Assembly: GCA_011109175.1 (NCBI GenBank)
Contig: RDEW01000001.1
Location: forward strand, 446,395-510,394
DNA: 64,000 bases
Direction: 5' to 3'
DNA from: Dicyema japonicum
Lineage: Eukaryota; Dicyemida; Rhombozoa; Dicyemidae
The notes beneath the pieces were generated by a model. The model searched no databases and had not been told where the DNA came from. It saw only the letters and a program-made list of their open reading frames with translations. The translations under genes and the position numbers were made by a program. Of the stretch, positions 2,805 to 63,833 are shown in pieces; the first letter of the stretch is position 1; every line of letters starts with the position of its first letter.

Positions 2805-4690
2805 TCACCTATCAGCCGACTTTTTGAATGTTATGTTATCCAAATTAAGTCGTGTCCGACCTTTGGAGATCTCATGAGCCAATTTTCTCCACTCTCCCCG
2901 ATCCGTCGCAATTTGGAGTGGCCTTGATATAGGCATTCCTGTGACGTCTTCTACCGTGGATAGCCACCGAGTCCTCGGTCGACCAGGCCTTCTTTTCTCA
3001 GTAATATTGCTCAGCATAATAGTTCTTTCCACGGAGTCAGAGCGTACAACATGCCCAAAGAACACCAATCTGTGTTTTACGATTCTTCCTTCTAGCGAAA
3101 TGTCCGTCTCCACCTGTTTGATTACATCGGTGTTTGTTATTTTGGAAGTCCAAATAAACACCTCCAGCATTAAAGTTCAAAAGCATCAATTTTTCGTCTA
3201 TCCGCCTATTTCAGTATCCATGATTCTGCGCCGTATAGAAAAAACCGAAAACACGATTGCGTTAACCAGTCTGCATTTGGTCCATAAGCAAAAATTCTAT
3301 TCATTCTCAGAAAGGCGCCCCCTCTCCGTCTCATGGCAATTCGCCTCTTAATTTCCAAGCCTCTGTCACCATTCCGATTAATTAGACATCCCAGAAAGAC
3401 AACATTATCGGAACTCTCTATTGTCTCATTCTCAATTTTTAGTTCCATTATTCCATTATTACCAGTCGTCATAATTTTGGTCTTCTTGATATTTAACAAT
3501 AAACAAAGACGGTGCTCTCTTCTCTGAATCTTAGAATTAACTCCCTGAGGCCATCCTCTGTTTCAGCCAGTAAGGTTGTATCGTCAGCATAGCGCAATGG
3601 AGAATGTCTTTCTCCATAATCCACCGGACATTTGCTATATGGTCACGTGTGCCTCGTCCCTTCCTGAAACCTGCTTGGACATCAGGTAGAATCATTTTGG
3701 CATTTGGCATTAGACGATGTTGTATTATCTTTATAAGTATTTTGCTGACGTGGGGAATTAAGGCTATTGTACGATAGTTTGAACAGTCCTTGCTATCCCC
3801 TTTTTTCGGAATTGGAATAAATATAGATCTTTTCTATTCGCGTAGCCAAATACCAATTTCCCAAATTTTTTGACATAGACTGGTGATAGCTGTCACCGGT
3901 ATAGTAGTCTTCTTCATCCTTCCTAGATGCCATTTTGAATTCAGAGTTAAGTTTTCTTATCTCGTCTATATTCCCAGAGACTTTAGCAGCTTTACAAGCC
4001 TCAGCAATGTTTAGGGTGTTGACAGAGAGCTACTCAGAGCACTTGGCCGGCGTTTTGTATTTGACATGTTTTATTGCAGCCTTCATGATAACTGCATATC
4101 ATTCCATTATTCATCAGACATCTTCCGTTCAAATCCAGTAATCCAATATTGTGCTTAAATTCCATTGCCTATGCTGATGGTATGTTTGAGACATCGAATT
4201 TCTTTACTCGAGAGGTATTCAAATTGTTACTGAATTTCGTCCTAATTTTCGCAACAAGTAGCTGATAGTCTGTTTGCTTCTGGAGATGTTTTGAAGGCTG
4301 TTGTAAAGCTTTTCCAGCGTTTGGCGCACAAAATATAATCAATCTGGTTCTAGACATTCCATTAGGCGAGGTCCAAATATATAATCGTCGTTTGTGCCAT
4401 TTGAACCATGTGTTAGTTATCTGAAATCCATTTTCCTGACAGAATTGGACCAGTCGTTCCCCAGCATCATTTCTTTTCCCAAAACCAAAACTTCCACAAT
4501 ATCCGTATGTGGAATACATTCAACTTTTGAATTGAAATTCTTCATTATGTGGATTATGTCATTTTTTGGTAATGGGAGACACCCCCATTTGCTTACTTCA
4601 CAATCCTCTGATTTATCAACTGACAGCTTTAATGCCACTCCATCCTATATGAGTACAAGGATTGTTTGTCTCCATTCACATTAACAAAGC
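2805..4690 (-). mobile_element. RTE-like non-LTR retrotransposon, degenerate (LINE-R copy 1)
   Basis: Read on the minus strand, parts of an endonuclease (about 4640-4170, including SPNGMSRTRLI), the RT motifs VQAGFRKG (about 3690) and YADDTTL (about 3590), the RT thumb (FLGCLINRNGD, YGAESWILK) and the typical C-terminal tail (FFGHVVRSDS, KRRPGRPRTRW, GEWRKLAHEISKGRTRL) occur in order. The tail is characteristic of RTE-type elements often annotated 'craniofacial development protein 2-like'. Frames change several times, so the copy is dead. A second copy of the 3' end lies at 29441-29955 on the plus strand. Confidence 0.85.
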
Positions 4691-10539: not shown

Positions 10540-11400
10540 AGTGATCTCACGAATTGGATCAAGGCTCTCATCTTTGCTCGGTGTTGATCCCTTGAGCTTA
10601 CACAAGTTCGTTGCGGGCGAGCACTTCCTTTTTGGCATTGGTGTCCATTTTTGTTTTTTTCTATGGGAGTCGGTGATTTGATGATTTCCCCTGTATACCA
10701 TCTCTCAGTTATTTTGAAGGTCTTTTTCCGGGTTGCGGAGATTTTCTGGATGTTCGTATAAGAGGCCAGTGGTCCCCATGAAGTACATGCATATGAAATG
10801 CATGGTTCGATGTACTGTGAGAAGAGCGTTTTAAGTATAGGGTGATGTCCAATTTTCCATAGACCTGTTAGGCATTTCAGAAGGTAGATTTTCTTCTATA
10901 TTTGTTCAGCTCGTTAGTGACGTGTCTTGAAAAGTTCATGTGCGTATCGAAAGTCAGACCCAATATTTTTTGCCATTTGCTGAACGCCAATGCTCGTCCC
11001 TCCACAGTAACTTTTATTGTCCTGTTCGACAATCTTTTGTCTGAGGTATAGAGAGTTGTAACAGATTTTTCGGTATCGATTGACATCCGATTTTCATTGA
11101 ACCACTCGAGTAGTCGATCCATGTGGTGTTGTATTCTTTCCGTCGCTGTTTGGATGTTCTGATCCTGTGAGGATGAGACGATATCATCCGCATAAGCCAG
11201 AAGTAGGTCGTCTTCTCCATTCGGCGTCGGAATGGCATTCGTAAATAAATTGAATAGAAATGGTGATAGCGGCGAACCCTGGGGTACTCCATTCGGTAAT
11301 AAACGGGAGACAAAATGAATGTTTCCAATGCACACTCTACCTCTTCGTCCGCCAGCGTTTGAGGTTTTCAGGGATATCTGATTGATAAATCAATGACATC
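10540..11400 (-). mobile_element. Jockey-like LINE, RT 3' half (LINE-J)
   Basis: Minus-strand RT with GRRGRVCIGN, LLPNGVPQGSPLSPFLFNLF, LAYADDIVSSS, WFNENRMSIDTEKS and KILGLTFDTHMNFSRHV intact in one frame from 11335 to 10877, then a decayed C-terminus. 5'-truncated at about 11400, where a plus-strand LINE-A begins. Confidence 0.9.
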
Positions 11401-11404
11401 CTAG

Positions 11405-13075
11405 GCATAATAATAATCGATGAAAAGGACAAAGCAGCTACTATATCTGCTTATTACTATCATATGCTCAACTGGGACAACGAAATAGGCTATAAATTTG
11501 GTGCACAAGTCAAGCATGGTTTGGACATCCCAATAAACACACAAGAAACACTGGATGCAATTAAAAAATTGAAAAATGACAGATCGGCAGGACCAGAGAA
11601 TATCCCAGCCGAACTTATAAAGTATGCCCCAGTGAAGTTGGTAACAATCATTACCAATATACTCAACAAAATATTTGAAGAAAACACAACGTTAGACATT
11701 GGCAAGGGTTGGTTAATTCCACTGCAAAAACCGGGAAAATCCAAAGGGCCCCTTTCCAACCTAAGACCAATCATCCTACTAACTACGCTGCGAAAAATCT
11801 TGTCAATTACATTGGAAAGAATCAAAGACAAGGTGGAGTATTTTCTGTCACCAGGACAAAGTGGTTTCCGGTTAGACAGATCCACTGCCGATGTCATTTG
11901 GACACACAGATGGTCAAGTGCTCTATGCCAAAAATATAAAAAGTGCATAGATGTTCTCGGAATAGACATGTCCAGAGCGTTTGACTCAGTTCATAGAGGC
12001 AAACTTCTTGAAGTACTCACAAGCTTCCTAACAACGGATGATGTCAAAATTATACAAAAACTACTGCAGAATACGCAACTAGCAACCAAACTCGGAAAAA
12101 CTACTTCAGAATTCTTTTATACTTCACGTGGAATTCCGCAAGGAGACTCTTTGTCACCAGTTCTATTCATAATCTACCTGGAGGCTGCACTGAGAGATTT
12201 CAGGCCTTTAATTGAGAACAACAAAATAATCGAGTTAATATATGCAGACGATCTTGACTTTGTTTCTGAAGATGTTGAAATTCTTCATCACGTTCTCAAG
12301 AACTTACCAAATGATTTTCTAAATGGTTCTTTGTTGTCAACCAAGACAAAACTGAATATACAAAACTTGTACGAGTTGTACGCACTTACGATGAATCATG
12401 GAAAAGGCATAAAAAAGTTGGTTCACTACTTGGAGACTCAGAAGATGTTACCCACAGAAAAATCCTTTCCACTGCTGCATATAAAAAATTCTTAACTATC
12501 TGGCGTTCTAAGAAGAGCATAACTACGAATACAAAGCTAAAATTGTATAAAACATTCGTGGTTCCAGTCCTGACATACAACTGTGGGACATGGGGGATTA
12601 CGAAACGGGAAATGGACAATCTGGATCAATTTCATAGAAATCAACTAAGAAACATCTTGAGAATACATTTCCCGAAAAAGATATCAAATTCAGAACTGTA
12701 CAAAAGATGTGGCTTAAGGCCATTATCAGAGGAGATTCTCAAGGCTAGGTGGAGACTTTTTGGTCACATCTTACGAATGGATATGTTGACTCCACCAAAC
12801 ATTGCAATGGAGAACTATTTCGCACAACTGAAGGGATCATTCCGTGGCAGGCCTAGAGTGACGTTGCCTTCAGTACTAAATGATGACCTTATCCGAATAA
12901 ACAAAACTCTACGAAATGGTGAAGATCTTGACTCACTACGAGCAATGGCCCGGAACAGGAGAACATGGAAAAGGATGTGTGGGAGGATACTGGACGTGGC
13001 ACAAGGGGAACTTAATTAATCTAATTAATTTTTGATTTCCCGGGAGTGCTTAAAAAAATAAAATAAAAAAATAGC
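11405..13075 (+). mobile_element. LINE-A copy, nearly complete RT ORF, 5'-truncated
   Basis: The longest LINE-A reading frame. RT motifs: KSKGPLSNLRPIILL, LGIDMSRAFDSVHRGK, GIPQGDSLSPVLFIIYLEAA, IYADDLDFVSED. One frame shift near 12320 (before the FVVNQDKTEYTKL block) separates the first 11464-12495 frame from its continuation, which runs to the stop at 13019 through LYKTFVVPVLTYNCGTW, RWRLFGHILRMD, SFRGRPRVTLPSVL and a final LDSLRAMARNRRTWKRM block. No endonuclease is present; the copy begins inside the region before the RT. The A-rich 3' tail starts at about 13050. The clade is not assigned; the GRPR C-terminal domain is family-specific. Confidence 0.9.
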
Positions 13076-13745: not shown

Positions 13746-15172
13746 AAAACTTAAGATCTTTGTTCCGCTTGAATGGGCCGGCCCTGACCCCCTTTTTGAA
13801 AAAAATCGCTACACTAATAAATGAATTGTTTTCAACTAACTCAACTTTGCCCCTGGGAACGGGATTACTACAACCTATACAAAAACCCAATAAACCCAAA
13901 GGACCGGTTGAAAACTTACGACCTATTATATTATCAAATTCTCTACGGAAAGTCTTAGCTAACATTGTATTGGAACAAATAAAAGGACCCGCCTATGAAT
14001 ACCTACCCGAAAGTCAAAGTGGGTTCAGAGAAGGAAGATCAACAGCTGATGCAGTCTGGAGTCACAGATAGAGATGTGCAACACATCAAAGATATTGCAA
14101 TGCCACCCACATTCTGGGAATAGATCTATCAAAAGCCTTTGACTCGGTTAACAGCAAAAAATTGATGACAAAGCTGGAAGGGTTTATTGACGAATCGAGT
14201 CTAAGAATGATTCAAATCCTTCTATCTAACACAGAGCTCCTTGTGAGAGTTGGAAAAACCTACTCAAGAAAATTTGAAACAAACACAGGCACTCCTCAAG
14301 GAGACTCCCTCTCTCCGCTGCTATTCACAATATACTTGGAGGCCTCTATGAGGGAACTGAGACCATTATACCAAGGAAAAATAGAAGAAGTGATTTATGC
14401 TGATGATGTCGACCTAATTTCTGAAGACAAAGAACTCCTGGAGCATGTACTAGAAAAAGCACCAAATAGACTTGGGAAATGGTTTCTCACCGTGAACAGG
14501 GAAAAAAACAGAACGGACAGAAATAAGACGAATGAACAACTCACTCGAAGAAAATTGGAGACACATAAATAAACTTGGCTCTCTACTAGGAGATAGCGAA
14601 GACATCATACAGAGAAAAACATTGGTAAATGCGGTATTACACAGGTTGAAAAATCTTTGGCTAAAACGGATAGGGTACAACATAAAACAAAGGATTATGT
14701 TATACGACACATTCATCAAACCAATCCTATTATACAACTCTGGGACTTGGGCCACCTCTAAATAGGAATTGGAAAGGCTAGACTCATTTCACAGGAATCA
14801 TCTAAGAAACATAACTGGAATGTCCTGGCCATCCAAGATGTGTACACCATTAAGCCACGAGATCATTAGCTCTCGTTGGAGACTTTTTAGACATGTCCTG
14901 AGGTTGGACCCGATATCCCCTCCGAATATTGCAATGGAAGATTACTACTCCTCCAATGTAAAACGCTTTTGTGGAAGACCGAGAACTACCCTCTCGGTCG
15001 TTCTACAAAACGATCTGAAAGCCGTGAAGAAAACATTGGCATCTGGTGACGATCTGGATTCACTGAGAGACCTAGCAAAGAACAGAAGAGCTTGGAGCAA
15101 CCTAACTAATTCTCTTATATTTTTGGGCTATAAATATTATGGCTCTCGTGAAAGTGCTAATAATAATATCTG
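13746..15172 (+). mobile_element. LINE-A copy with intact 3' end
   Basis: RT motifs KPKGPVENLRPIIL, LGIDLSKAFDSVNSKK, GTPQGDSLSPLLFTIYLEA, IYADDVDLISED, then LYDTFIKPILLYNSGTW, RWRLFRHVLRLDP and CGRPRTTLSVVL. There are premature stops at about 14069 and 14764 and a frame shift near 14510. The 3' end (15125-15172) reads GGGCTATAAATATTATGGCT then CTCGTGAAAGTGC and a TAA repeat, almost the same as the 3' end of the SINE copies at 37191 and 43642. 5'-truncated where it meets the integrase remnant. Confidence 0.9.
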
Positions 15173-15434: not shown

Positions 15435-15786
15435 TTACAACGTCTAATCGACATTATTGAATCAAGGTAGAGACTGTTCGGCCACGTGCTTAGAATGGAC
15501 ATAAACGCCCCTGCAAATATAATAATGGACAATTACTTTAACAACGAGAACAAACCATCATTCAGAGGAAGACCCAGAGTCACTCTACCTGTGGCTCTGA
15601 ACAAGGATCTTAATGGGATTAGAAGAAATCTTAAATCTGCAGAAGACCTAGAAGATCTAAGAACAGATGCGGAAAGCAGAGGGCGATGGAGACGCCTAGT
15701 GAAGCAGATTGTGAAACGTACGGGATCTTAGTTAATATAACGTTCTTTGGTTCTGTGAAAGTGCTTTAATAATAATTACAACGTCT
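15435..15786. repeat. 11-bp target-site duplication TTACAACGTCT flanking a LINE-A fragment
   Basis: TTACAACGTCT occurs at 15435-15445 and again at 15776-15786, exactly at the two ends of the LINE-A 3' fragment. This shows insertion by target-primed reverse transcription into the hAT sequence. Confidence 0.85.
15446..15775 (+). mobile_element. LINE-A 3' fragment inserted in a hAT element
   Basis: Encodes only the last part of LINE-A: RLFGHVLRMDINAPANIIMD, FRGRPRVTLPVALNKDL, LEDLRTDAESRGRWRRL, stop at 15729, then the family 3' tail (CTGTGAAAGTGCTTTAATAA). The coding part has no stop, so it is young. Severe 5' truncation is usual for LINEs. Confidence 0.92.
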
Positions 15787-34670: not shown

Positions 34671-37178
34671 CCTCCTTCAGACCATCCGTGACCGCTATTA
34701 TAATTTAAAAATAATAATTAAATATAAATTTAAAGCCACTTTATTTAACCAACAATAAAAAGTTAATATTTAATAATCAACAACCTTCCTCGCCTGCCTG
34801 TTAGCCAGCCTCCTCAAGCAGGTTCGATACTGGTTGCAGAAACAACTCCAGAGCGCCTTGTCCAATTGAACTCTCTGCCTATATGGCCTCTCCGGGCTCT
34901 GCCTACTATACTCCAGTGTCAGGCTCTCTAGGGTCCGCTTTAATACAGTGGACTGTAGATAGGCCTGGAGCTTCCTATCTACCCCTAACTGCTTCAGATA
35001 ACCCTTGTAGTACTTTGTTGCAATTCCTTCCCACGTCATTATTATATGAATAACGAGGACCTTGCAACCAAGCATCTGCCCCATCTCGTTTGCAAGCAAG
35101 TCATACTTCCTTTTTTTCTCCACCTCCACAGTCTGCAAACGGTCTTGAGACGTAATGCCAACCTCTATGATAAGGACTTGGCCAGACTCCTTATCGTGTA
35201 CCACAATGTCTGGTTTATTGTGCTTGACTAGCACCGAGGTACGGATAACACTGTCTACCTTAATTTGGACCCTGGTGTTCTCTACTACAGATTGCACCTT
35301 ATGAGTCCGCAACTTTCTGGTGTGGCGAATACCATACTTATTGCATAGTAGAAGATGAAGACTCCTTACTACCTCGTTATGCCTCTACACATAGTCGTGG
35401 CAGAGCATGGATCCACATCGAGTGGCTAAATGATCAACCGACATGCTCCTTGACTTACAGTGGGGACATGTATTTGTTGATCGACCCCAAAAAATATTGC
35501 GGTCTTGCATATACGTGTACAACGCCTCCGATCGAGGTGAGTTGTCACCGTATTTTAGCCATATTGTCGACGACTTAAGGTCGACATGTGGGTTGTCCAA
35601 TGCTCTGAAGAGGACCTTATGAAGGCTTTTTAAGTTGATCTTTTCCATCAAATTATTATATTGTAATTCGATCAACGCCTTCACATTTACTAGCCCACCA
35701 TCATCAACACCATACTTAGCAGACAAAAAAGGTCTGATAGTGCCTAGGTGGGTTGCCCGTGTTTTCTCGGTCGTTATTATGGCGTGCTTCCTAGCAGACA
35801 CACTTGACCCAGCTATCAGGGTGTCGTGCATTCGCATTAGGATACGCTCACTTAGTTGGACTACTCCACACAGTCCACGGCCGAATTTATCACGGGGTAA
35901 ATATAGTCTCTCCTTATTGGCTGCCAACACATGGACATGGTTCTCTCTGAGTACTCCACGGATCATAACATCCATCTCATCATACTCTTTGGGCTCAAAC
36001 TCCACAACACCTATGTAGTAGTTTAGCAGCGAGACAGCATACTCATTTAATGCTAGGAACAAATTCCTTGCATTTAGAGACGTCTTACACAATAACGCTG
36101 CTCTTTTACGGATGCCTTCAGTAATTTGTCGCTTTGTCTCAGGCATTATAAGGGACTTTGGAGATTCGGTAACACCCAGATACTTATATCCTTCGTGTTC
36201 CTCTAGGACTCTTACTAACTCGCTACATACTTGCGTGTTAGTCGCAGACTTTGAATAAATCAAATCTAGCCTATACTCTCAAAGAATTCCCTGGCACAGA
36301 CTCCCATGGAGTAGAGCTCCTCGGCTGTTTGAGCATACATCTTCAGGTCATCGATAAAAAGAAGGTGATTTGTGCTAAAGCAACCCCTTCACAATGAACT
36401 GGTATTTGCTCAAACCGGTCATTGAGGCGGATACTCAATGGCTCCAAACAGATAATAAAGAGAAGCGGAGACATTATCCCCCTGAAAGATCCCCCTCTTA
36501 AGTTTTACCTCGCCTATCCGGTACCTATTATAGTTCAGATGAATTACTCCACCTATTCATCACAGCCACTACAAAGCTGATGAACCACACAGGCATACAC
36601 AGGCTGTGTAGGCACTCGACAAGGTAAGAATGATCAACTGAATCGTAAGCCTTCTTCACATCCACCCACATAGACAAATGTGAGTTTCCGTGAGACATAG
36701 AAAGGCATTTGTTGATCAAAGCCTGCTCTTTTGCCCCCTGACAATTTCGCACAGTACCCAACTAATTCTCGGAGAATCCCATTTGCTTCTACAAAGCTCC
36801 TGACCTCATTAGCCACCAATTTGGTCATCAGTTTATACAGGGTTGGCATGCAGGTTATCGGTCGATAATCTGCAGCAGATTGGGGTTGTCCAGCTTTGGG
36901 ATCAAAATAAGTTGTCCCTGTGCATGCCCAATCAGGAATCGTTTCCGGTTAGTGATGCTTTCTGTAATACACGACACATAGACTCGTGCGATGAAATGCA
37001 TCTTTTGATAAAGAAATTATAAACTTTATCGTCCCCGGTCGTTTTCCAATCAGGGAGATGTCTCACTACCGCCTCAAACTTCTTGCGGAAATCGAAAATT
37101 CCGCACAATTCCGCCAAGAAAAGAGCGGCGCTGTACGGGACATTCCACGCATTACCTCTGCGTGGTTTAGCCTCCCAC

Positions 37179-37520
37179 ATACTACCCATGGTGGCTTAGT
37201 GGTTAGGTGTCGGGCTTAAGTGGCTTAGGTTACGGGTTCGAATTTCGCTGCTGTTCACCTGGTGGAAGGTTCCACGCATCTACGATGCAGAAATGGTTTG
37301 ACGAGTGACGCCGTCATCAGTGAATACTCACTGCGGAACTGGATTGTCTAGAAAGGACACTCACACAAGAAAAAGAAAAAAGAAGTGAAGATCATTTCTT
37401 GGTTCTACGATTAGTTAAAATTAACTGTTCTTTACTTAAATGTGTGTCCTGCCTATGTGGAGCTATAAAATACTATGGCTCTCGTGAAAAGGCTTTATTA
37501 TTATATTATACTACCCCATG
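37179..37520. repeat. Target-site duplication around SINE copy 1
   Basis: ATACTACCCATG (37179-37190) before and ATACTACCCCATG (37508-37520) after the SINE differ by one base. The two flanks join the interrupted LINE-D coding sequence. Confidence 0.8.
37191..37507 (+). mobile_element. tRNA-derived SINE, copy 1 (317 bp)
   Basis: The 5' end is tRNA-like: box A TGGCTTAGTGG at 37192-37202 and box B GGTTCGAAT at 37235-37243, about 33 bp apart, as in an internal Pol III promoter. A non-tRNA body follows. The 3' end (about 37470-37507) reads GAGCTATAAAATACTATGGC then TCTCGTGAAAAGGCTTTATT and ends in an (ATT)n tract. This end matches the LINE-A 3' end at 15125-15172. It is inserted in LINE-D copy 2. 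Short AAG/AAAAG-rich stretch near 37370. Confidence 0.93.
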
Positions 37521-38829
37521 TGGAAAGCATTTCCGCGTCCTGCTGGGAACATACACTATGGCCATTTTCGTGTAGGCGGCGGTAAAACAATCTGCGATTA
37601 AACTTAAACAGATATTTTATCTCCTTCTCTTACACCGACTTTCATGTTTTTAGAGTTTCTTCTTATACACCATTATTGCCCCCTCTAATCCCACTTTGCC
37701 CTCCTCAACTCTTTGAGGTCCCGTTTGGGAACACGGAGTTTACTAATTAGCCTTTTACTAGAGGCGGTGCTTTTCTTCTAACCCCTCTCGCCACACTACT
37801 TATGTGCCCCTCCAGTGCTTCCAGCTCAGTCTGTCTCCAAGCAATCTTGGCACAGATCTGTTCCCTCCATTTACTGGGTAGTCTGGTGATCTGTGCTGCA
37901 TACAGCACTAGGGAGATGTCACCCAGTGACCCTACTGGCTTAGCCTCCATCGCATAAGCCACAGCCTTATTGATACAGGTTAACACTACTCCGTTAACTT
38001 TACAATGAGGGATCTTGCGGGTAAATCTACGGTCCTCAAGTGGGACATCTGCAGCTGCAGCGAGATTCCGCGCAAAGACCTCATAAACATGCTTGAGCTG
38101 CAACGTATCACAGCTCTGGTGCTCGTGCTCTCTTTGACAGTTGTGGTCATCTGGTCCCCGCCCATTTGAACCAGTACCCTCTTTGCCTACAGCCATTTTA
38201 TTGAGTTCACTCACAGATATAGCAGTACTGAATCTGCCACTGCAGAGTTTCGCCAAGTATGGCCAACCATTCCAGGGCATTCGGGATAGCCTGCTACGTA
38301 CCTGCAGGACTACCTGCCTCACCCATTCTTTTGGGTCAGCTGCCACAACGCTTTCGGATATGGCAAGAGTAATATTCATACCATCAGGTAACGCAAGTGA
38401 CCTTTCTCTTTTTTTCCTTTCAACATTTTTACCAACTTTGAGAGTTTTAACGCCACCGAAATATAAATTAATAAATTAATTAAAGTTACTTTGTGAGTAT
38501 CACGTGACTTATCAAATAATGACTATATTAGGATTACTTCCTTTGAACAATTTGAGTCTGTAATAAACGATCAATACATGTGAGTTCAATTATAATACTA
38601 GTGATCTTGTCATTATCTTCTTTACGTCCCCATAACTGGCCAGTGTCAGCAAATGAGGGATATTTTAACTGAACTAGACGAAGACAAGGTGATGTACAAC
38701 AGAGTCATCCTTGAAGTAGTCATCTGGTATCATTTCAGGTCCCTTCGGAGGAAATGATTCCTTTGTCTCAGAAATACTAAGTGAAGGTGGCCCCAACAGT
38801 GATATATGTCAGAGTTTGGGAATTTTGTT

Positions 38830-40910
38830 ATTAAAGGGTGGATTTGAATTTGACAGAGTGGAAGGTTTCGATACCTTCGACTGACTCCGTCTTCTCCCAC
38901 TCCCGTCTTTCCAAACTATCACGTCATCAGGCGCGACCGCCCAGCTGGGCGGGGTGGAGGACTGCTTACCCTTATCAAAAAAGAAATTCCGTACGCAAAC
39001 GAAACTTTTGTCAACCTCAAGTCTCCGACGTATATATTGGTATTTCAGTCAAGACAAGCATCGGAAACATAAACATATTGAATGTGTATGTGCCACCGCC
39101 CAACTCTTGCCCCAAGGAATTCAGGTTCTCCCTGTCAGACATCGACAAATCAAAAAATATGTTACTTTGTGGAGACCTAAACGCAAAGCATCCGACATGG
39201 TTCAAGAACCAACCATGCGATGTCAGAGGAAACCAATTGTTATCGAATCTGGATGACCTGATAATATTAAACAACCCTACATTCAATACAAGGATTCCCT
39301 ATAGAGCGAATGACATGACATCGTCCCCCGATCTTACTCTTGCCTCACCAAACATCGCAACATTAACAAAATGGACAGTACTATACGAGACCAGCAGTGA
39401 CCATAATCCCGTTATGATTACGTTTGAAGGAAGAGTGTCAATTGTAAAGAAACCTGTTTTATTTACCGACTACAAAAATGTCGACTGGAAAAAGTTCTCA
39501 AATTTTGTCGACTATTATCTACTTGACTTTCATTTATCCAATTTCAACTCCATCGATAAAGCACTACACTATTTTATTCCCTGTGGTCCGGACGGAATCC
39601 CTGCAATAGTTCTGAAAAACATAGGCCCCTATGCTATCATGGACCTCACAAAATTTTTCAACTTTTCAATCAACGAAAATTGTATTCCTTCCATATGGAA
39701 GCTATCAAACATACGACCTATTATGAAACCCGGGGGACCAAAGGGATCACCAGCCTCATACAGACCAATATCTCTCCTATGTGTTACATCAAAAGCTGAT
39801 TCTTGAACTAATCAAACCATACCTTCCTGATGCACCTTTTCAACACGGATTCAGAAAAAACTCCACAGAAACGCATCTTACATGCCTTACAAATTTCATC
39901 AAGGATGGACTAAAGCGCAAACCTCATCAGAAGTCTTTGTTATGCTCCATCGATATAGAAAAGGCTTTTGATACTTTCCCAAGAAAGTTTTTGATAAGGA
40001 AGATCTTTACGTCAAAAATTCCAAACAACCTGAAAATCTGGATCGCTAATTTCCTAAATGGAAGAAGAGGAAGAGTAACTGCTTGAAAAACTAGATCAGT
40101 GACCAAGTTCCTTCCAAATAAGATCCCTCAAGGATCTCCACTTTCACCACACCTATTCAACCTATTCCTCCCTTACCAGTGACGATACTCTGGTTTGACA
40201 TATGCGGATGATATAATCGTCGCAGTCAAAGAACAGTGCGTTAATACTGCTGTTTACCGGATACAAGCTTCATTGGAAGATCTGAACTGTTGGCTCGTTA
40301 AGAACATTCTACATACAAGTCTCGAAAAGTCTTATACAATAATTTTCACAACAAACAGAAGATTGACAAACTCCGCTTCATGTGTAGCCATAAATGGAAA
40401 CTCAATCCCCACGACCAACTCGGTCAAGATACTGGGCGTAACTTACGACCCACTCTTGACCTTCAGCAAACACATCGACAACGTCATCTCTTGGGCACAA
40501 CGAAAGCTAAATTTTGTTAAAACACTCCTTGGACAATATAATGAGTGTTTCAACTCAAATTTGGACTCGCTCTACGTGCAGTATATTCAACCGTCTCTAA
40601 CTTACGGGTGTGCAGCATGGGGAACCAACCTATCAAACAGGAATAAAGAAAAAATCAATACCTTCCAAAAAATAAGGCTTTGCAAAGGTTTTCTTGGACA
40701 CCTCTAAACCCTATACCCTTTGAGGAATTAGTGAGGAAAACCGGAGCCTTACTACCCTCCAAAAAAGTTAGAAAACCCCGCCCAATCCGGAAATGCGTTG
40801 GAACCCAGGAAGAACATCGAGCAAGAATGAGATGGCTACTCGAGGCGGCCGGAATCACCTGACGGCTATGTAGTTAATTAATTAATTTGTCGGTGATTTT
40901 TGGTTTTTAA
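38830..40910 (+). mobile_element. Jockey-like LINE with internal deletion (LINE-J)
   Basis: Endonuclease: INILNVYVPPPNSCPKEF, MLLCGDLNAKHPTWF, MTSSPDLTLASPNI, TSSDHNPVMITF. At about 39570 the frame passes straight from the end of the endonuclease linker (NSIDKALHYF) into the RT (IPCGPDGIPAIVLKNI), so several hundred bp are deleted without losing frame. RT continues with HQKSLLCSIDIEKAFDTF, NGRRGRVTA, KIPQGSPLSPHLFNLF, LTYADDIIVAVKEQ and a C-terminus ending at 40862 (GTQEEHRARM). One frame change at about 39800, stops near 40084 and 40180. 3' (TAA)n tail at about 40903. Confidence 0.92.
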
Positions 40911-41392
40911 TAATAATAATTTGAACCGAATAATCTTTATCATAAACAATCTTGTATAATTAATTGAGAAAATCTTTATTATAAACAATCTTTTAAAAGC
41001 CCCACTTCATGGCTATTCTTTCTCACAATAGCGTGCCAACTCGCTCGAATAGCCGACGTTCACTGAAATCGTCAGAACGGAATGAAATCTGACTACCAAG
41101 TCGAACAATAAATTCCTTTTCGAAAATCTCATGGTAACGCAAGTATCCTCAGCAAGTGGAATAAATTAATTCATCTGGTACGTCAGCATACTTATCTTAG
41201 CACATGAAGAATTTAAGATCAGAAAAAAGCACGATTCAAACCAGAATACTTCGACCAGGTTGAAAGCAATGTGGAATTAAACAAACAGCGAATCACAACA
41301 GAACTAACCACAACAGTCCGGTTCTAGAATGATTATTAACTGTTTTTATTTGGATTAAAATATATTTAATACAAATATAAATGAATAAAATT
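40911..41392. other. Intergenic; nothing identified
   Basis: AT-rich with no recognised feature. Confidence 0.4.
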
Positions 41393-41848
41393 TCATTTAG
41401 AATTCAAATCCATATTCATGGCTTTGTGGAACCCTTCCATAACATACTTTCTAGTCTCTTCATTAGCCATGAGTCGCTCAGTCTCAGATTGTATGTCCTT
41501 CTTCCCAATTACAAACTCTTTTTTATTATTTGGAGACAGTTGCCTCCATATTTTCTTTTTCTCCTTATGTAATACGACACAGACTCTTCCGCCAGATAAG
41601 AACTCGGAATAAAGTGAGAAATACCTTTATTGAACTTTTATTGGGTTCTACAGCACGTGAAAGCAAAATCTTTAGACTGTGGGAGTCCAATGACACTTCC
41701 ACTAGGTCGGGCTTGTTGTGGGTTAAAGATATTTTGTTTGAGTCATATTCGAAGTCTGGTTTAATGTAAATTTTTATCTGGTCTTCTGTTTGATCCCAAA
41801 CTTAAAAATAAGCAATATTATACAGTAAGATTTTATAGGATTATGCAT
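41393..41848 (-). CDS. CS-domain protein (NudC/p23-like co-chaperone fold)
   Basis: Three exons (41848-41824, 41800-41625, 41602-41393) separated by GT-AG introns of 23 and 22 nt give an intact 136-residue protein. The start MHNPIKSYFWDQTEDQIKIY has the CS-domain opening (W-x-Q-T-x-x-x-V/I-x-I). Further conserved spacing is seen in VEVSLDSHSLKILL, GGRVCVVLHKEKKKIWRQLS. A helical C-terminus (SETERLMANEETRKYVMEGF, HKAMNMDLNSK) resembles the NUDCD2/NudC tail. Such proteins act as HSP90-linked co-chaperones or in dynein regulation. Which subfamily it is cannot be settled by eye. It is isolated among transposons. Confidence 0.65.
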
Positions 41849-42219
41849 TTTGGATTAGTTCACGCAACACGAAACAAAGCAATACAGGTTTTTAAGTTTT
41901 GATAATTTATTTAAAATTAATTTTAATATGTTTTTAATTATTTTAATTTTATTACAAATTGATGAGATTTTGTCCTAATAAGATGAACAACACGCATAAA
42001 GTTTCTTGAAGTTTGCAGCAACTTTTTTTTACTTTAGGAAAGAGATTAAGAAGAGAGACAGTCGAATTAAAGCAAAAAACGACATTTTCCTCTTTAACAT
42101 ATCTGAAAAATCCTCGGGTGATTTTTGACATGCAAATGTTATTTACGCCTTATGTTAAAAGTTGTAGCCAGACACGAAACGAGGACTAAATGTCTCTCGT
42201 GGATGTGAACCTTCCTATG
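41849..42219. other. Upstream region of the CS-domain gene
   Basis: AT-rich, no feature recognised. Confidence 0.35.
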
Positions 42220-42550
42220 AAGAGTCTTCAGATCTTAGAGCTTAGCAGTTTCATTTTTATCCTAGACAAGTCATAGTTTAGCACAGTTGGTAAGGTTGTT
42301 CCCGTCTCTCTCAATAATTTTAAGTAATTGTGGCCGTGAAGTAATTCTCCATCTTATAGTTGGCGGTAGTTGAAGTATCCAACCGTAGAACATTTCCATA
42401 GAGTTTTAACCGGTCTTAGAGGATTATCTCCGACAGTTTTCTGACCTTGTTGAGGAGATCTATTTGTTAAATTCCTTCTTGTCCTCAATGACAATTTGTA
42501 GTCATGGCCAGTTGAGTACCAACTATCTCTAGGAGAAAACATTGTACGTT
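42220..42550 (-). mobile_element. LINE-A 3' fragment, decayed
   Basis: Minus strand contains ETGTTLPTVLNYDLSRIK-type sequence (GRPRTTLP..LN.DL block of LINE-A) at about 42295, preceded by decayed upstream residues. Weak, with stops. Confidence 0.5.
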
Positions 42551-43304
42551 AGAATCCAAATGCTTCGAATCCTTAATCCGTATGAACCAATGGAGGCGCA
42601 TCGGACAAAATGAAATCTCTGCTTGAGCAAGTTGGGATCACGTTTGTAGTTAGTTTGATGTTATCGTGGTCTTGGAAATTTCCTTTGACTGATCTTTACG
42701 AATACTGACCTTAAGTGCTTCCCTATTAGATTCATGAAAGTGACAGCTATTTTACGCGTACTACTTAATATCCGATGATCTCCTACAAGTTAGTAAAGTG
42801 TAGGTTACGTATCTAACGATCTTTTTTATTATCGTTGGTTTTTTTTCATTTTACGAGACTGAAAGTAAATAATTTCAGTAAAAATCTGTTGCGCTAAGTG
42901 TCCTCATTTTAGTTGGATATGACTCGTTTCCTTTCTTAGAAAACATTGAATTTTAAAAAATAATTTCAGGTGTCGAATCCTCCTTGCCTAAATTGGGGGA
43001 ACTTTGATAAGTCTGTCTTTATGAGTAACTGGACAGTTTGGATCTCATTTTTGATTATTTCCGAATTCAGGTACTTCCCTAATTCACGGAACACTTTCTT
43101 TCGGAATTAGATTTAATGAAATAATCGTTTGTGGAGTCTCGTGGGTGGTGGTTGTAGATTCTTTATAAAACTATCAAAATACGTTTAGAATAAACTTCTT
43201 TGAAATTCACATGAAAATATTCTGTAGCTCAGAGGTCAACACTTCAGAGGTTGCGTTACCAAGATTATAGAAGACTTGATCCAAAATCATCGAAAATATC
43301 GGTA
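42551..43304. other. Intergenic; nothing identified
   Basis: No gene or repeat recognised before the target-site duplication of SINE copy 2. Confidence 0.4.
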
Positions 43305-43660
43305 ACTTTGTGAAGAAAGCTTAATAATAACAGCCTATTCACGAGAGCCATAATATTTATAGCTCCGCATAGGCAGGACACACACTTTATTTAAGTAAAG
43401 AACAGTTAATTTTAACTAATCGTAAAACCAAGGAATGATCTTTACTTCTTTTTTTCTTTTTCTTGTGTGTGGGTCCTTTCTAGACAATCCAGTTCCGCAG
43501 TGAGTATCCACTGATGACGGCGTCACTCGTCAAACCCTTTTAGCATCGTAAATGCGTGGAACCTTCCACCAGGTGAACAACAGCAAGAATCGAACCCGTA
43601 ACCTAAGTCACTTTAGCCCGACACCTAACCACTATGTCACCCACTTTGTGAAGAAAGCTT
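43305..43660. repeat. 18-bp target-site duplication around SINE copy 2
   Basis: ACTTTGTGAAGAAAGCTT occurs at 43305-43322 and, without mismatch, at 43643-43660, exactly at the SINE ends. Confidence 0.95.
43323..43642 (-). mobile_element. tRNA-derived SINE, copy 2 (320 bp), reverse orientation
   Basis: Same element as 37191-37507 on the opposite strand. Box B GGTTCGATTC (reverse complement of 43588-43597) is perfect; box A is TGACATAGTGG. The 3' end gives GCTATAAATATTATGGCTCT and CGTGAATAGGCTGTTATTAT, which over its first 20 bases is identical to the LINE-A tail at 15128. It is flanked by an exact 18-bp duplication. Confidence 0.95.
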
Positions 43661-44834: not shown

Positions 44835-45628
44835 TCTTTCACTCTTTTTTTTTTTTTAAACAAAAATTTATTAACAATAAAATATTATTTATTAACTATG
44901 GGGGAGAGCGGCTGCTGACATCACAGAGTAAGCGTTTCCGCGAACAACTGCGATACCAATTCTTTGCCTCAGCCAGACCGCTTCCCGCACGTCTTTCTTG
45001 CGGTGGGCCAACTTTCCCCGATTTCCTTTAGGAAAGAGGCTGTAATACTTCCAGCCGCACCAGACGTCTCGATTGCTACCGGTACAAAACGGTAGCGGTC
45101 TTCAATTTCGCCATATTTTTTAATTTTGATTTTCTCGGCCAGATCGGCTGCCGATCCAGCAGACTGCGCCGAGCTGAGCATCATCGAGTTCGAGAAAGAG
45201 TCCACAACAGTGCAGTCCCATACGAGCGATTTTCCCTCAGTGAACGGAAAGATAGTTAATCCATCCGGTCTTTTCCCATCTCCGCGGTCCAATCCCACAG
45301 GTTCCAATACTGCCGGGAAGCCTGCCGCTTCAAGAGCTCGAAAGACAATGTTGTTCATAGCAGCATGGCGGGGTGCTCTGCCCGCACTCCTTTTGCACGA
45401 GAGCGGGTGCAGCCCTTTGGCATCGACGATCCCTCCACAGCGACATTGGTGTTCGACGCAAACATCAGCTCCCAGGCGTTGTGCGATTCCAATCCGGAAT
45501 ACAGTCATCGTCCAATAGGGTCCCCATGGAGGAAGACGGGAGTGCATCCAGCCACGCTCCGCTCCATGGTTGGCGGCGGACACGAGGCATGCAAGACGAT
45601 GCTGGTTGGCCTCAGACTCTTTCACTCT
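44835..45628. repeat. 11-bp target-site duplication TCTTTCACTCT around a LINE-E copy
   Basis: TCTTTCACTCT at 44835-44845 and 45618-45628 flanks the LINE-E insertion exactly. Confidence 0.9.
44846..45617 (-). mobile_element. LINE-E 3' end with nuclease-like C-terminal domain, GC-richer than its surroundings
   Basis: A 218-residue frame (45625-44969) encodes [80 protein letters not shown] then DCTVVDSFSNS. The Cys/His cluster followed by RPD...W-D-x-T looks like a PD-(D/E)xK nuclease fold attached to RTs of this type. A frame shift near 44990 leads into the true end RIGIAVVRGNAYSVMSAAAL and a stop at 44893. A poly(A) tail (T-run at about 44846-44860 on the plus strand) and an exact duplication prove insertion by retrotransposition. 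GC content is clearly higher than the neighbourhood. Confidence 0.88.
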
Positions 45629-45629
45629 A

Positions 45630-45950
45630 AATAAAGAATCCCAAAATCACAGAAACTGATTGTGACAAACTTCAGGAGGAAAATCCGGCCGAAACTACGG
45701 AAACATACAAAAAGGTAGTGTTTTTCAATTTGCAGCGTTTGGATGAGTTCAATTTATCACGTATAAAACTACAACAAAAAATAGAAGAATTGAATTTAAC
45801 CAAGAAATTATATAGTTGAATGACTAACAATTATATCGACTTTAAATGGGATTTTGGAAACAAAAAGAAAACTACAAAGTCCCTCTAATTGGCCAACATT
45901 TAAATTAGACAATTCTCAAATTGGCTACAAATTAGTTAAAAAACATAAAT
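45630..45950 (+). CDS. Hypothetical coiled-coil exons (candidate gene)
   Basis: An open stretch NPKITETDCDKLQEENPAET, TETYKK is followed by a 21-nt GT-AG intron (about 45715-45735) and then by RLDEFNLSRIKLQQKIEELN, LTKKLY. A possible longer intron leads to a short final exon ending at a TAG near 45905. The upstream part was not found; a LINE-E is inserted directly before it. Low confidence. Confidence 0.3.
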
Positions 45951-55322: not shown

Positions 55323-55535
55323 AATAACACCAGCTCTTAAGAAATTCATAATACCTACGAATAAGAACACGTGCTTTATTTTAGAGTAAAGAACAATTAT
55401 CTCAACTAATCGTTGAAAAGGATCCAATGAATATTGTTTATTTTTTTGTCTCTGTAGACAATTCGGTTCAGCAGTGAGATGTTCACTGATGACAGAGTCA
55501 TTCGTTAAAATGAGTGGAAACTTCTATATTATATA
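55323..55535 (-). mobile_element. tRNA-derived SINE, copy 3 (decayed, tRNA part missing)
   Basis: Aligns by eye with the body and 3' end of SINE copy 2 in the same orientation: AATAACACC..., TTAGAGTAAAGAACAATTAT, CTCAACTAATCG, GTAGACAATTCGGTTCAGCA, GTGAGATGTTCACTGATGAC, AGAGTCATTCGTTAAA. Many substitutions and an old deletion of the tRNA-like 5' part. No duplication seen. Confidence 0.8.
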
Positions 55536-62020: not shown

Positions 62021-63833
62021 TCATAAAATATGCTTTTTTATGTTGTATCTACCAATATTGTCAATTCGAGAATTTTTCAAATATATGACTGCGTCCTGTA
62101 GGTCCATCCTGTAGTTGGTCTTGAAGAGATATTTCTCACGTGTCAAGGGAGCCTCTCGTTGGAAGTAAGGAGCAATGTAATAGTAGTTGATGAACTCAAA
62201 TCTGCAGTAAATGATATTTATACTTGTCCTTTAAATAGTTATTCCCCTTCTCCCCCGTGATTCCCTCAATGGCAGCCATCATGTGATCAGTCACTCTCAA
62301 ATTGAGCTCCTCAAACATTGACATGGTCATTTCCTTACGTTTAACCACGTGGAGAAAGTTAACCAGAGGTTTTATGGTGATCCCCTGAACTGAATACAAC
62401 TCCAACCTGTAAAAAGACGGTAAAGTAAATGAGACATAGCGTAGCACTAAGCATTGAGCGTTTGCTGACTATAATGTCTTCATTGAGGAGTGAGACGAGA
62501 CTGAAGGCCACAGCACCTCGGAGTCCTCCATAGGCCATAATGAACTGCTCATTAACTTTGATTTTGGAGACTCTAAAGTGGTTAATGATCATAGTGAGGA
62601 TGATCACCCCCAGAGACCGATACAGGAGGCAGAAGACAATCACAAAGACAATAAAGTAAGCGTCCCACTGAAGAGTTTCATTGGCAGTGGAAATCCCCAG
62701 GAAGACGAAAATGATGGTTTCTGAGAGATTGCTCAGGACTTTACTGAAATATTTAACAGTGACCAGGGAAGTCTCAGCAATATTCTCATTAACGTGTATT
62801 TTCATAGTCATGGCAGCAAAGACAATCCTAATAATTAAAATTGTCAATTTACGCTAAAATCCCAGAAAGACGGATTGTATCTGCCAGGAGGTAGCACAGA
62901 TATGGGAGAAGGATCACTATAACTGGTTCGATTATCAATATCTTTGAGGTATATTTAGTGAGGAAGGCAGTGAGCATCCCAAAGATTACTCCAAACACAA
63001 TTCCGAATATACTGGTCGTAAAGAACGAACCAATTCCGCTGATAATGTCAACGGCAATGATTTTTTTGATCACAGTAAAGTCATTGAATATGTTATAGAG
63101 CACCTGAATTGGTATTAAACGCAGAAAACCACGGAAATTGCGTCATTTAGAAGAGATTCTCCAAATACAATAATGTAGAGGTCCTCGTTAACGTGGACTT
63201 CCTCAAAAATTGCTAAAACCGCGACGGGGTCCACAGCGGAGATGATTGAGCCAAACAGAAAGGCGTCAAGGAATGGAAGAGGGTATTTGAATAGTCCAAG
63301 CTTATATATCCCATAGAGAGATCCCCCTGAGGATGTTGATAGAGGACAAACCAATTGTAAAAGCGTTGAACAGAGTAGCGATGATGGCGTAGGTTAGAAT
63401 AGTTCCAATATTACGGAAAACGCGTCAACCGCATAAAAAAACCCGGCATCGAAGGCAATAGCTGGGAGAAGAAAAAGAAAAAACGTATCAGCGCTGAAAA
63501 TGTGATGAATCCCCACTTCAGCATTTTTAGACAAGAGAAAGAAGAGTCCAATAATGAGGCCAAGGATGAGGAGGAGGGAACTCTCAGGGACTGCATTTGG
63601 CAGTTTGGGGATAATGTGGAATACTAAATTATTAATATTGGTTAATTGAATGATAATTGTCAATCAAAGTACCTATTCTGGCCATACTAGTGACGAATAT
63701 CCAAATCCCAATTATAAATGTCACTGATTTCTGAAAAATTCCAGTGGAAGATTTGAAATCGTTTGTCGGTGTCATCATTGGTACAAATTATTGCAGAAAA
63801 GAGAACATTTGCAATTAACACTATTATTAACAT
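62021..63833 (-). CDS. NHE-type Na+/H+ exchanger (SLC9A family), with apparent frame breaks
   Basis: Exons join through GT-AG introns at 63624-63672 (49 nt), 63327-63351 (25), 63104-63129 (26), 62828-62852 (25), 62385-62406 (22) and 62202-62223 (22). Conserved NHE blocks appear in order: [146 protein letters not shown]. About 12 transmembrane helices can be drawn. The cytosolic tail is short (about 140 residues). NHEs exchange Na+ for H+ across plasma or organelle membranes. Two places break the frame: near 63727 (between FHWNFSEIS and [10 protein letters not shown]) and near 63420 (VDAF to FRNIGT; one T appears missing). They may be sequencing errors or real decay. An alternative start (63778) avoids the first break. 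Confidence 0.88.

Follow-up and report, generated by a model that had tools for sequence, protein, structure and literature searches.

In Helicoverpa armigera, the short interspersed element (SINE) HaSE1 is described as carrying the 3′ tail of the long interspersed element (LINE) HaRTE1.1 (PMC3272025), and 58 SINE/LINE pairs are tabulated in PMC3747384. RTE LINEs are described as having a short 3′ untranslated region (UTR) with AT-rich short repeats (PMC1291365, PMC2887409), and the open reading frame (ORF) of HmRTE-e01 as 990 amino acids long (PMC2887409). A SINE and an RTE-like LINE (LINE-A) that share a 3′ tail were analysed in a 64,000-nucleotide stretch of the Dicyema japonicum genome (contig RDEW01000001.1, positions 446,395 to 510,394; hereafter the window). 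The consensus tails of both are predicted to fold into the same bulged hairpin, and the reading we favour, with a probability of roughly 0.8, is that the SINE is an RNA polymerase III (Pol III)-type retroposon ending in the 3′ end of an RTE-like LINE, and that an RTE-type enzyme would bind this hairpin and copy either RNA. To our knowledge, the choice of template RNA by RTE reverse transcriptases (RTs) has been far less studied than for R2 and L2.

The genome searched comprised 64.7 Mb in 191 contigs, with the window on contig C1. Two SINE copies were found where the original prediction had placed them, copy 1 of a young subfamily (head with box A and box B, body, tail and (TTA)n) at about 37188-37507 on the plus strand and copy 2 of an old subfamily at about 43323-43642 on the minus strand (43641-43323 in the direction of the element), with 91% identity over 321 nt. 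The target-site duplications (TSDs) predicted for them were also found: ATACTACCC flanks copy 1 (37179-37187 on the 5′ side and 37508-37516 on the 3′ side, plus strand) and ACTTTGTGAAGAAAGCTT flanks copy 2 (43305-43322 at the 3′ end of the element and 43643-43660 at its 5′ end, minus strand). The family is large, with 2322 first-look candidates, of which the best 40 were scored and proved near full length and 95-100% identical to copy 1. Divergence, computed for SINE and LINE-A on best-scoring copies only, was 0.6% on average from the consensus for the 30 best young copies and 6.6% (median) for the old subfamily (41 rows, one mis-sorted and several partial); the two subfamily consensus sequences differ by 5.4%. 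The Pol III promoter that had been claimed is present in the young consensus, where TGGCTTAGTGGT (box A) and GGTTCGAATCT (box B) are spaced by 43 nt with 2 mismatches in total to the general box A/box B consensus; 2 or fewer mismatches were reached by 0 of 3000 shuffled consensus sequences. The old consensus row has 5 box mismatches and begins inside box A (5′ end cut). The label 'tRNA-derived' held as far as the boxes are concerned and not in the tRNA searches: neither the 18 loci scanned with ARAGORN nor the window yielded a tRNA, and the single SINE copy searched gave no Rfam match at E ≤ 1. As the head gave no tRNA alignment, the SINE was filed as Pol III-type; on the box pair, its origin from a tRNA is likely, if unproven.

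The LINE-A copy in the window (13779-15168, plus strand) covers the RT and C-terminal parts of an RTE-like element; it is 5′-truncated at about 13779, its frame is broken, and no TSD passed for it. Its tail and (AAT)n occupy 15127-15168 (plus strand); it is without the stretch directly upstream of the tail, where most other copies have TGCACATGCGG, and the 5′ strand of the basal stem described below is missing. Elsewhere LINE-A is about 3.03 kb long (in four copies compared, the 5′ boundaries agree to within 14 nt), and its RT domain matches RVT_1 at 4e-33 in one copy (L032) and 1.5e-27 in a second. The C-terminal 225 amino acids gave no Pfam domain, and no RNase H was found in LINE-A. The stop codon lies within the block shared with the SINE (GCA CAT GCG GGG CTA TAA, then ATATTATGGCTCTCGTGAAAGTGCT, then (AAT)n), which leaves a very short 3′ UTR of 25 nt between TAA and repeat; the short 3′ UTR and the trinucleotide repeat fit RTE LINEs as described, and, judged by its sequence, LINE-A is an RTE-like LINE.

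The window LINE-A copy (ending near 15168) and SINE copy 2 have 26 exact bases in common (GCTATAAATATTATGGCTCTCGTGAA), which were found at 918 places in the genome at 2 or fewer mismatches and at none for the reversed control, so the likeness is not due to chance. Between the SINE consensus sequences and LINE-A, 40-41 nt are shared at 88-92.5% (last hexamer and repeat excluded), and this tail is the one strong match between the two elements (E 1.6e-12 for the old and 2.9e-9 for the young consensus; next best 0.009 and 0.12). The nearly identical last 45 bp of the original prediction stand through GTGAA (about 40 nt in other copies) and not beyond, so that the end repeat is not part of the match: LINE-A ends in ATGCGGG..GTGAA-AGTGCT(AAT)n and the SINE in ATGCGGA..GTGAA-AAGGCT, followed by (TTA)n or, in some copies, by A-runs. 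Ends of the LINE type were counted at 130 places and of the old SINE type at 178 (each at 1 or fewer mismatches over 35 nt), and of the young SINE type at 139 (2 or fewer over 33 nt), which makes more than 300 SINE-type tails genome-wide. That LINE-A copies elsewhere carry the tail, as expected for a shared 3′ end, was also seen in 20 of 30 fetched loci, which reach the same end in unbroken LINE context, some with small differences; one LINE-A end (L053) is without repeat, and in the other 10 loci LINE sequence is lost before the tail. Of 100 listed exact tail places, 60 were fetched from the first 65 listed; by reading, 40 of them are of the SINE type and 20 of the LINE type, a ratio tilted slightly toward the SINE because the five omitted were four LINE-A places and the window SINE. 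One place (L118) had been sorted as SINE by script (41/19) and is LINE-type by reading. BLAST of the upstream sequence agrees with the tail type for 58 of the 60, one of which (L092) matches both types; it gave nothing for L070, which matched LINE-A separately, and for L102, which reads as a SINE remnant. Among the RTE-like 3′ ends read, that of LINE-A is closest to the SINE tail when compared by eye, as had been proposed.

The predicted hairpin has a basal stem of 4 bp, then a bulge rich in purines on the 3′ side and an inner stem; the short repeat follows it. Unconstrained folds of LINE-A, old SINE and young SINE tails (−17.5, −18.8 and −18.9 kcal/mol) are essentially one hairpin, with z-scores against shuffles of −3.5, −3.7 and −4.2, respectively; in the window it corresponds, by consensus fold, to 37451-37493 of copy 1 (GCCT/AGGC, plus strand) and 43333-43374 of copy 2 (minus strand). 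The LINE-A centroid is identical to the minimum free energy (MFE) structure of the old SINE. Between these two consensus sequences there are five differences inside the hairpin, and all pairs are kept: two pairs of the basal stem are compensated by double changes (A-U to C-G and C-G to U-A, turning GCAC/GUGC into GCCU/AGGC), and there is one G-U to A-U change. All 17 centroid pairs are standard in both sequences, and 16 of 17 pairs of LINE-A's own MFE structure are kept. Five random substitutions kept all pairs in 0.85% of trials, and did so with two double changes in 0.04%. Among core-exact copies, the basal stem is exact in 31 of 38 of the LINE type and 87 of 101 of the SINE type. When two tails were swapped artificially, energies were −16.5 and −15.0 and one of the two lost the basal stem. 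No description of a 3′ hairpin in an RTE LINE was recognised in the literature searched, which is not proof of absence.

TSDs were counted for copies with both ends found, 38 of 111 SINE candidates being dropped for unclear ends. They passed for 48 of 73 SINE copies (swapped-flank control mean 1.8) and 19 of 45 LINE copies (control mean 3.2; about 3 of the 19 may be false). After five doubtful rows (L030, L190, L035, L043 and L129) had been removed by hand, 46 SINE and 16 LINE sites remained, all of which begin with A or T. The first base is A in 14/16 LINE sites and in 24/46 SINE sites (T in the other 22; Fisher 0.017). T was found at −10 in 30/46 SINE sites (p 4e-6) and at −8 in 11/16 LINE sites (p 0.003), each being the strongest of four positions examined. 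Between −13 and −7, TT occurs in 29/43 SINE and 13/16 LINE sites and further upstream also in 19/33 and 6/10, while TTT occurs in 19/43 and 10/16 and further upstream in 7/33 and 2/10. SINE and LINE insertions share a similar RTE-style site pattern. The start of the TSD continues the element's own repeat (mean 2.58 against null values of 0.91 for the SINE and 0.90 for the LINE) in rows with in-phase tails (38/46 SINE, 12/16 LINE), where 0 and 3 of 20000 resamples reached the mean; the rule of taking the leftmost TSD favours own-repeat bases, and the null takes account of it. LINE sites prefer AAT over TTA by 13:1, and SINE sites prefer TTA over AAT by 22:17 only. Pairing of the tail repeat as cause of the site difference was considered as a candidate and is half borne out by these ratios.

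For comparison, 3′ ends of other RTE-like families were read (twenty fetched, more from flanks and the window); most carry TAA/AAT-type or A-rich repeats, and family F carries TAAC. A test of hairpin architecture took in ten LINE families, named after their 3′ ends (A, A2, B, C, E, F, H, I, J and K); nine of them, LINE-A included, and both SINE subfamilies passed, compared with 27-52 of 400 shuffled interiors each. The pieces L206-L209, L211, L214, L219, L223 and L225 were left out as they begin within the hairpin. Fold z-scores of single LINE families range from −1.0 to −3.7. Two families besides LINE-A have copies in the window: LINE-B, a second one of RTE-like type (RT and C-terminal parts, approximate outer limits 11389-13060, plus strand), has its predicted hairpin (GCAC/GTGC, stop codon inside) at 12999-13049 (plus strand), and family H is represented by a short 5′-truncated copy (15446-15775, plus strand) that begins about 270 nt beyond the LINE-A end, is flanked by TTACAACGTCT at 15435-15445 and 15776-15786, ends in GTGAAAGTGCTTT(AAT)n and misses the GCAC stem strand.

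On the predicted folds and insertion sites, our best reading is that RTE-type machinery would mobilise the SINE through the hairpin and not through the terminal repeat. The SINE RNA, made by Pol III, would end with a copy of the LINE-A-type 3′ end, and this end would fold into basal stem, bulge, inner stem and short repeat; an endonuclease/RT of RTE type, from LINE-A or a sister family, would bind the hairpin, the endonuclease would nick where the first base of the site is A or T and T-rich sequence lies about 8-11 nt upstream, and the repeat end would prime while the RT copies LINE or SINE RNA in trans. That the tail is the route of the SINE to the RT of a partner LINE, as originally proposed, gains support from its genome-wide presence in both elements. 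The present driver would be either an intact LINE-A copy beyond those listed or a sister enzyme that reads the hairpin.

Several observations weigh against this reading. The terminal hexamer and repeat of LINE and SINE differ and almost never mix. The match of LINE-A to an endonuclease is weak (PF03372, E 7.8e-5, 23.0 bits, below the Pfam cut-off of 24.5); three other endonuclease pieces gave no match, no match and 0.0068, and no solved structure matched the LINE-A endonuclease at 0.001. The longest open frame is 408 amino acids among the LINE-A matches listed at 75% identity or more (best 150 of 5616 candidates), and young SINEs (mean 0.6%) look younger than LINE-A copies (median divergence 3.3%). 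The 'complete pair with both members visible' of the original prediction was accordingly too strong, as the window LINE-A is a broken fragment and a long-frame copy is absent from the same best 150 matches. As to the hairpin, the other artificial tail swap retained a distorted basal stem. Family F fails the architecture criterion (inner helix too short), its basal stem GCUC/GAGC being a further compensated variant, and family D was left out of the test with a shifted stem. When a few flanking bases were added, the MFE structure of A2 departed from the architecture, and another copy of LINE-B (L224, z −1.0) also folded differently. The criterion was written after the folds had been seen and the families are related, so the architecture count is support and not a clean test.

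The alternative that survives best, which is a branch of the favoured explanation and which we hold to be possible at somewhat less than even odds, is that a sister RTE-like family with long frames (e.g. that at C2:435722) drives the SINE now; the fold would be what is recognised, and the SINE would then have outlived LINE-A as partner. Several sister families have listed open frames of 883-1013 amino acids, some near 964-1013 (984 again in a later listing), and the family at C2:435722 shows the same GCAC/GUGC hairpin (L220). These lengths are as listed and may include masked bases, the later listing covers the best 150 of 5616 candidates, and some values (4810, 7573, 12291) cannot be one gene; known stringent LINEs, moreover, are described as being strict in the recognition of their own tail (PMC4176376). 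One score (58% to LINE-B) is common to more than two dozen RTE-like places (among them C1:2214106, C2:3310 and C62:614445), many of which have long open frames; this looks like a recent burst. A tentative extension is that recognition would concern the hairpin shape, through the stop codon, which the SINE would counterfeit; as its own compensatory pairs copy the shape, it would be free of any need for identity in terminus or repeat, sister RTE families would drive it after the decay of LINE-A, and the repeat would only tune the nick at A/T sites.

We regard it as unlikely that an unseen LINE, extinct or outside the assembly, with an exact AAGGCT(TTA)n end is the real partner and LINE-A only a cousin. 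Such a partner would account for a SINE hexamer and repeat unlike those of LINE-A and for young SINEs at a time when no long-frame LINE-A is listed, and several listed RTE-like families are outside the set of 3′ ends read. Against it, LINE upstream sequence joined to a SINE end was found at 0 places and 1 place in two pattern searches, the one being a decayed LINE-A copy with AAGGCT then (AAT)n, and SINE upstream sequence joined to a LINE end at 0 and 0 places; the two gapped swapped-end patterns are at noise level, since their controls gave 1 and 3 matches. The other RTE-like ends read resemble the SINE less by eye, and the hexamer difference fits compensatory pairing in the hairpin. That LINE-A gained its tail by secondary SINE insertion, or that the likeness arose by chance, is highly improbable, because the tail runs straight on from the LINE reading frame in many copies, contains the stop codon, ends 20 of 30 loci and has related hairpins at the ends of other RTE-like families (reversed control 0), and only one chimeric copy (L092) speaks for it. 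This chimera (C45:513395-513755) consists of LINE-A 2580-2769, SINE 210-312 and LINE-A 2995-3044, with a 4-nt overlap (TTGG) common to both partners at the first joint; as a single case, it also counts in favour of shared copying, since one RT switching templates would explain it, and insertion plus deletion is possible.

Older relatives of the SINE with other tails were seen at L005:1201-1443, L059:1-256 (e.g. GGAGCTATAGCTAATATG..AAAGTGCATTATTA) and L007:1877-2130 and suggest that the tail was altered stepwise. A diverged sequence in the window (55374-55509, minus strand), about 71% like the SINE centre and with no recognisable tail, suggests an old SINE relative or remnant. No paper was returned by a literature text search for a 21-base word from the SINE. 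Between the LINE-A end and the family H copy, the window reads like what we take to be a hAT transposase end. Open frames at 34773-36278 and 44972-45646 (both minus strand), which gave no Pfam match, read like C-terminal parts of site-specific-type LINEs, and a piece of a sodium/proton exchanger gene lies at 62362-62853 (minus strand; PF00999, 1e-17).

Among described pairs, the Dicyema elements resemble in architecture HaSE1/HaRTE1.1, in which an invertebrate tRNA-type SINE is tailed by an RTE LINE of the same genome; the sections of that account covered here do without an RNA fold (PMC3272025). A bipartite RTE-SINE, described in hagfish as an RTE 5′ end plus its tail (PMC7245038), was rejected for LINE-A, as the SINE body has no convincing LINE-A match. 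Bov-B and Sauria SINEs are described as sharing a tail with differing end repeats, as having a T-stretch about 10 nt ahead of where the TSD begins (Tn-TA signature) and as showing LINE TSDs that begin with A, all as in Dicyema; their repeats are (CAA)n and (ACCTTT)n, compared with (AAT)n and (TTA)n, and SINE TSDs there start with T, compared with 24 A to 22 T here (PMC13295347). The tobacco TS SINE and the potato RTE LINE also share a 3′ end with a trinucleotide repeat but, unlike the Dicyema pair, have about 100 nt in common and both carry TTG repeats, and the compensatory hairpin described in the same source concerns plant L1 LINEs and not the RTE pair (PMC3747384). For zebrafish LINEs and UnaL2, recognition of a 3′-tail stem-loop by the LINE protein, with tails common to SINEs, is described from experiments on other LINEs, whereas the RTE-like hairpin of Dicyema is different and predicted (PMC4176376). 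As in stringent-type pairs, the same 3′ end was found in SINE and LINE, apart from the last hexamer and repeat. The genome supplies about ten RTE-like families and a SINE with similar predicted hairpins and natural compensatory variants, together with a tail that is nearly unchanged except that its end repeat is naturally swapped (AAT versus TTA), which opens both hairpin recognition and the part played by the terminal repeat to direct tests. Pairs of SINEs and RTE-like LINEs are already known; here, the hairpin shows matched base-pair changes that are directly readable.

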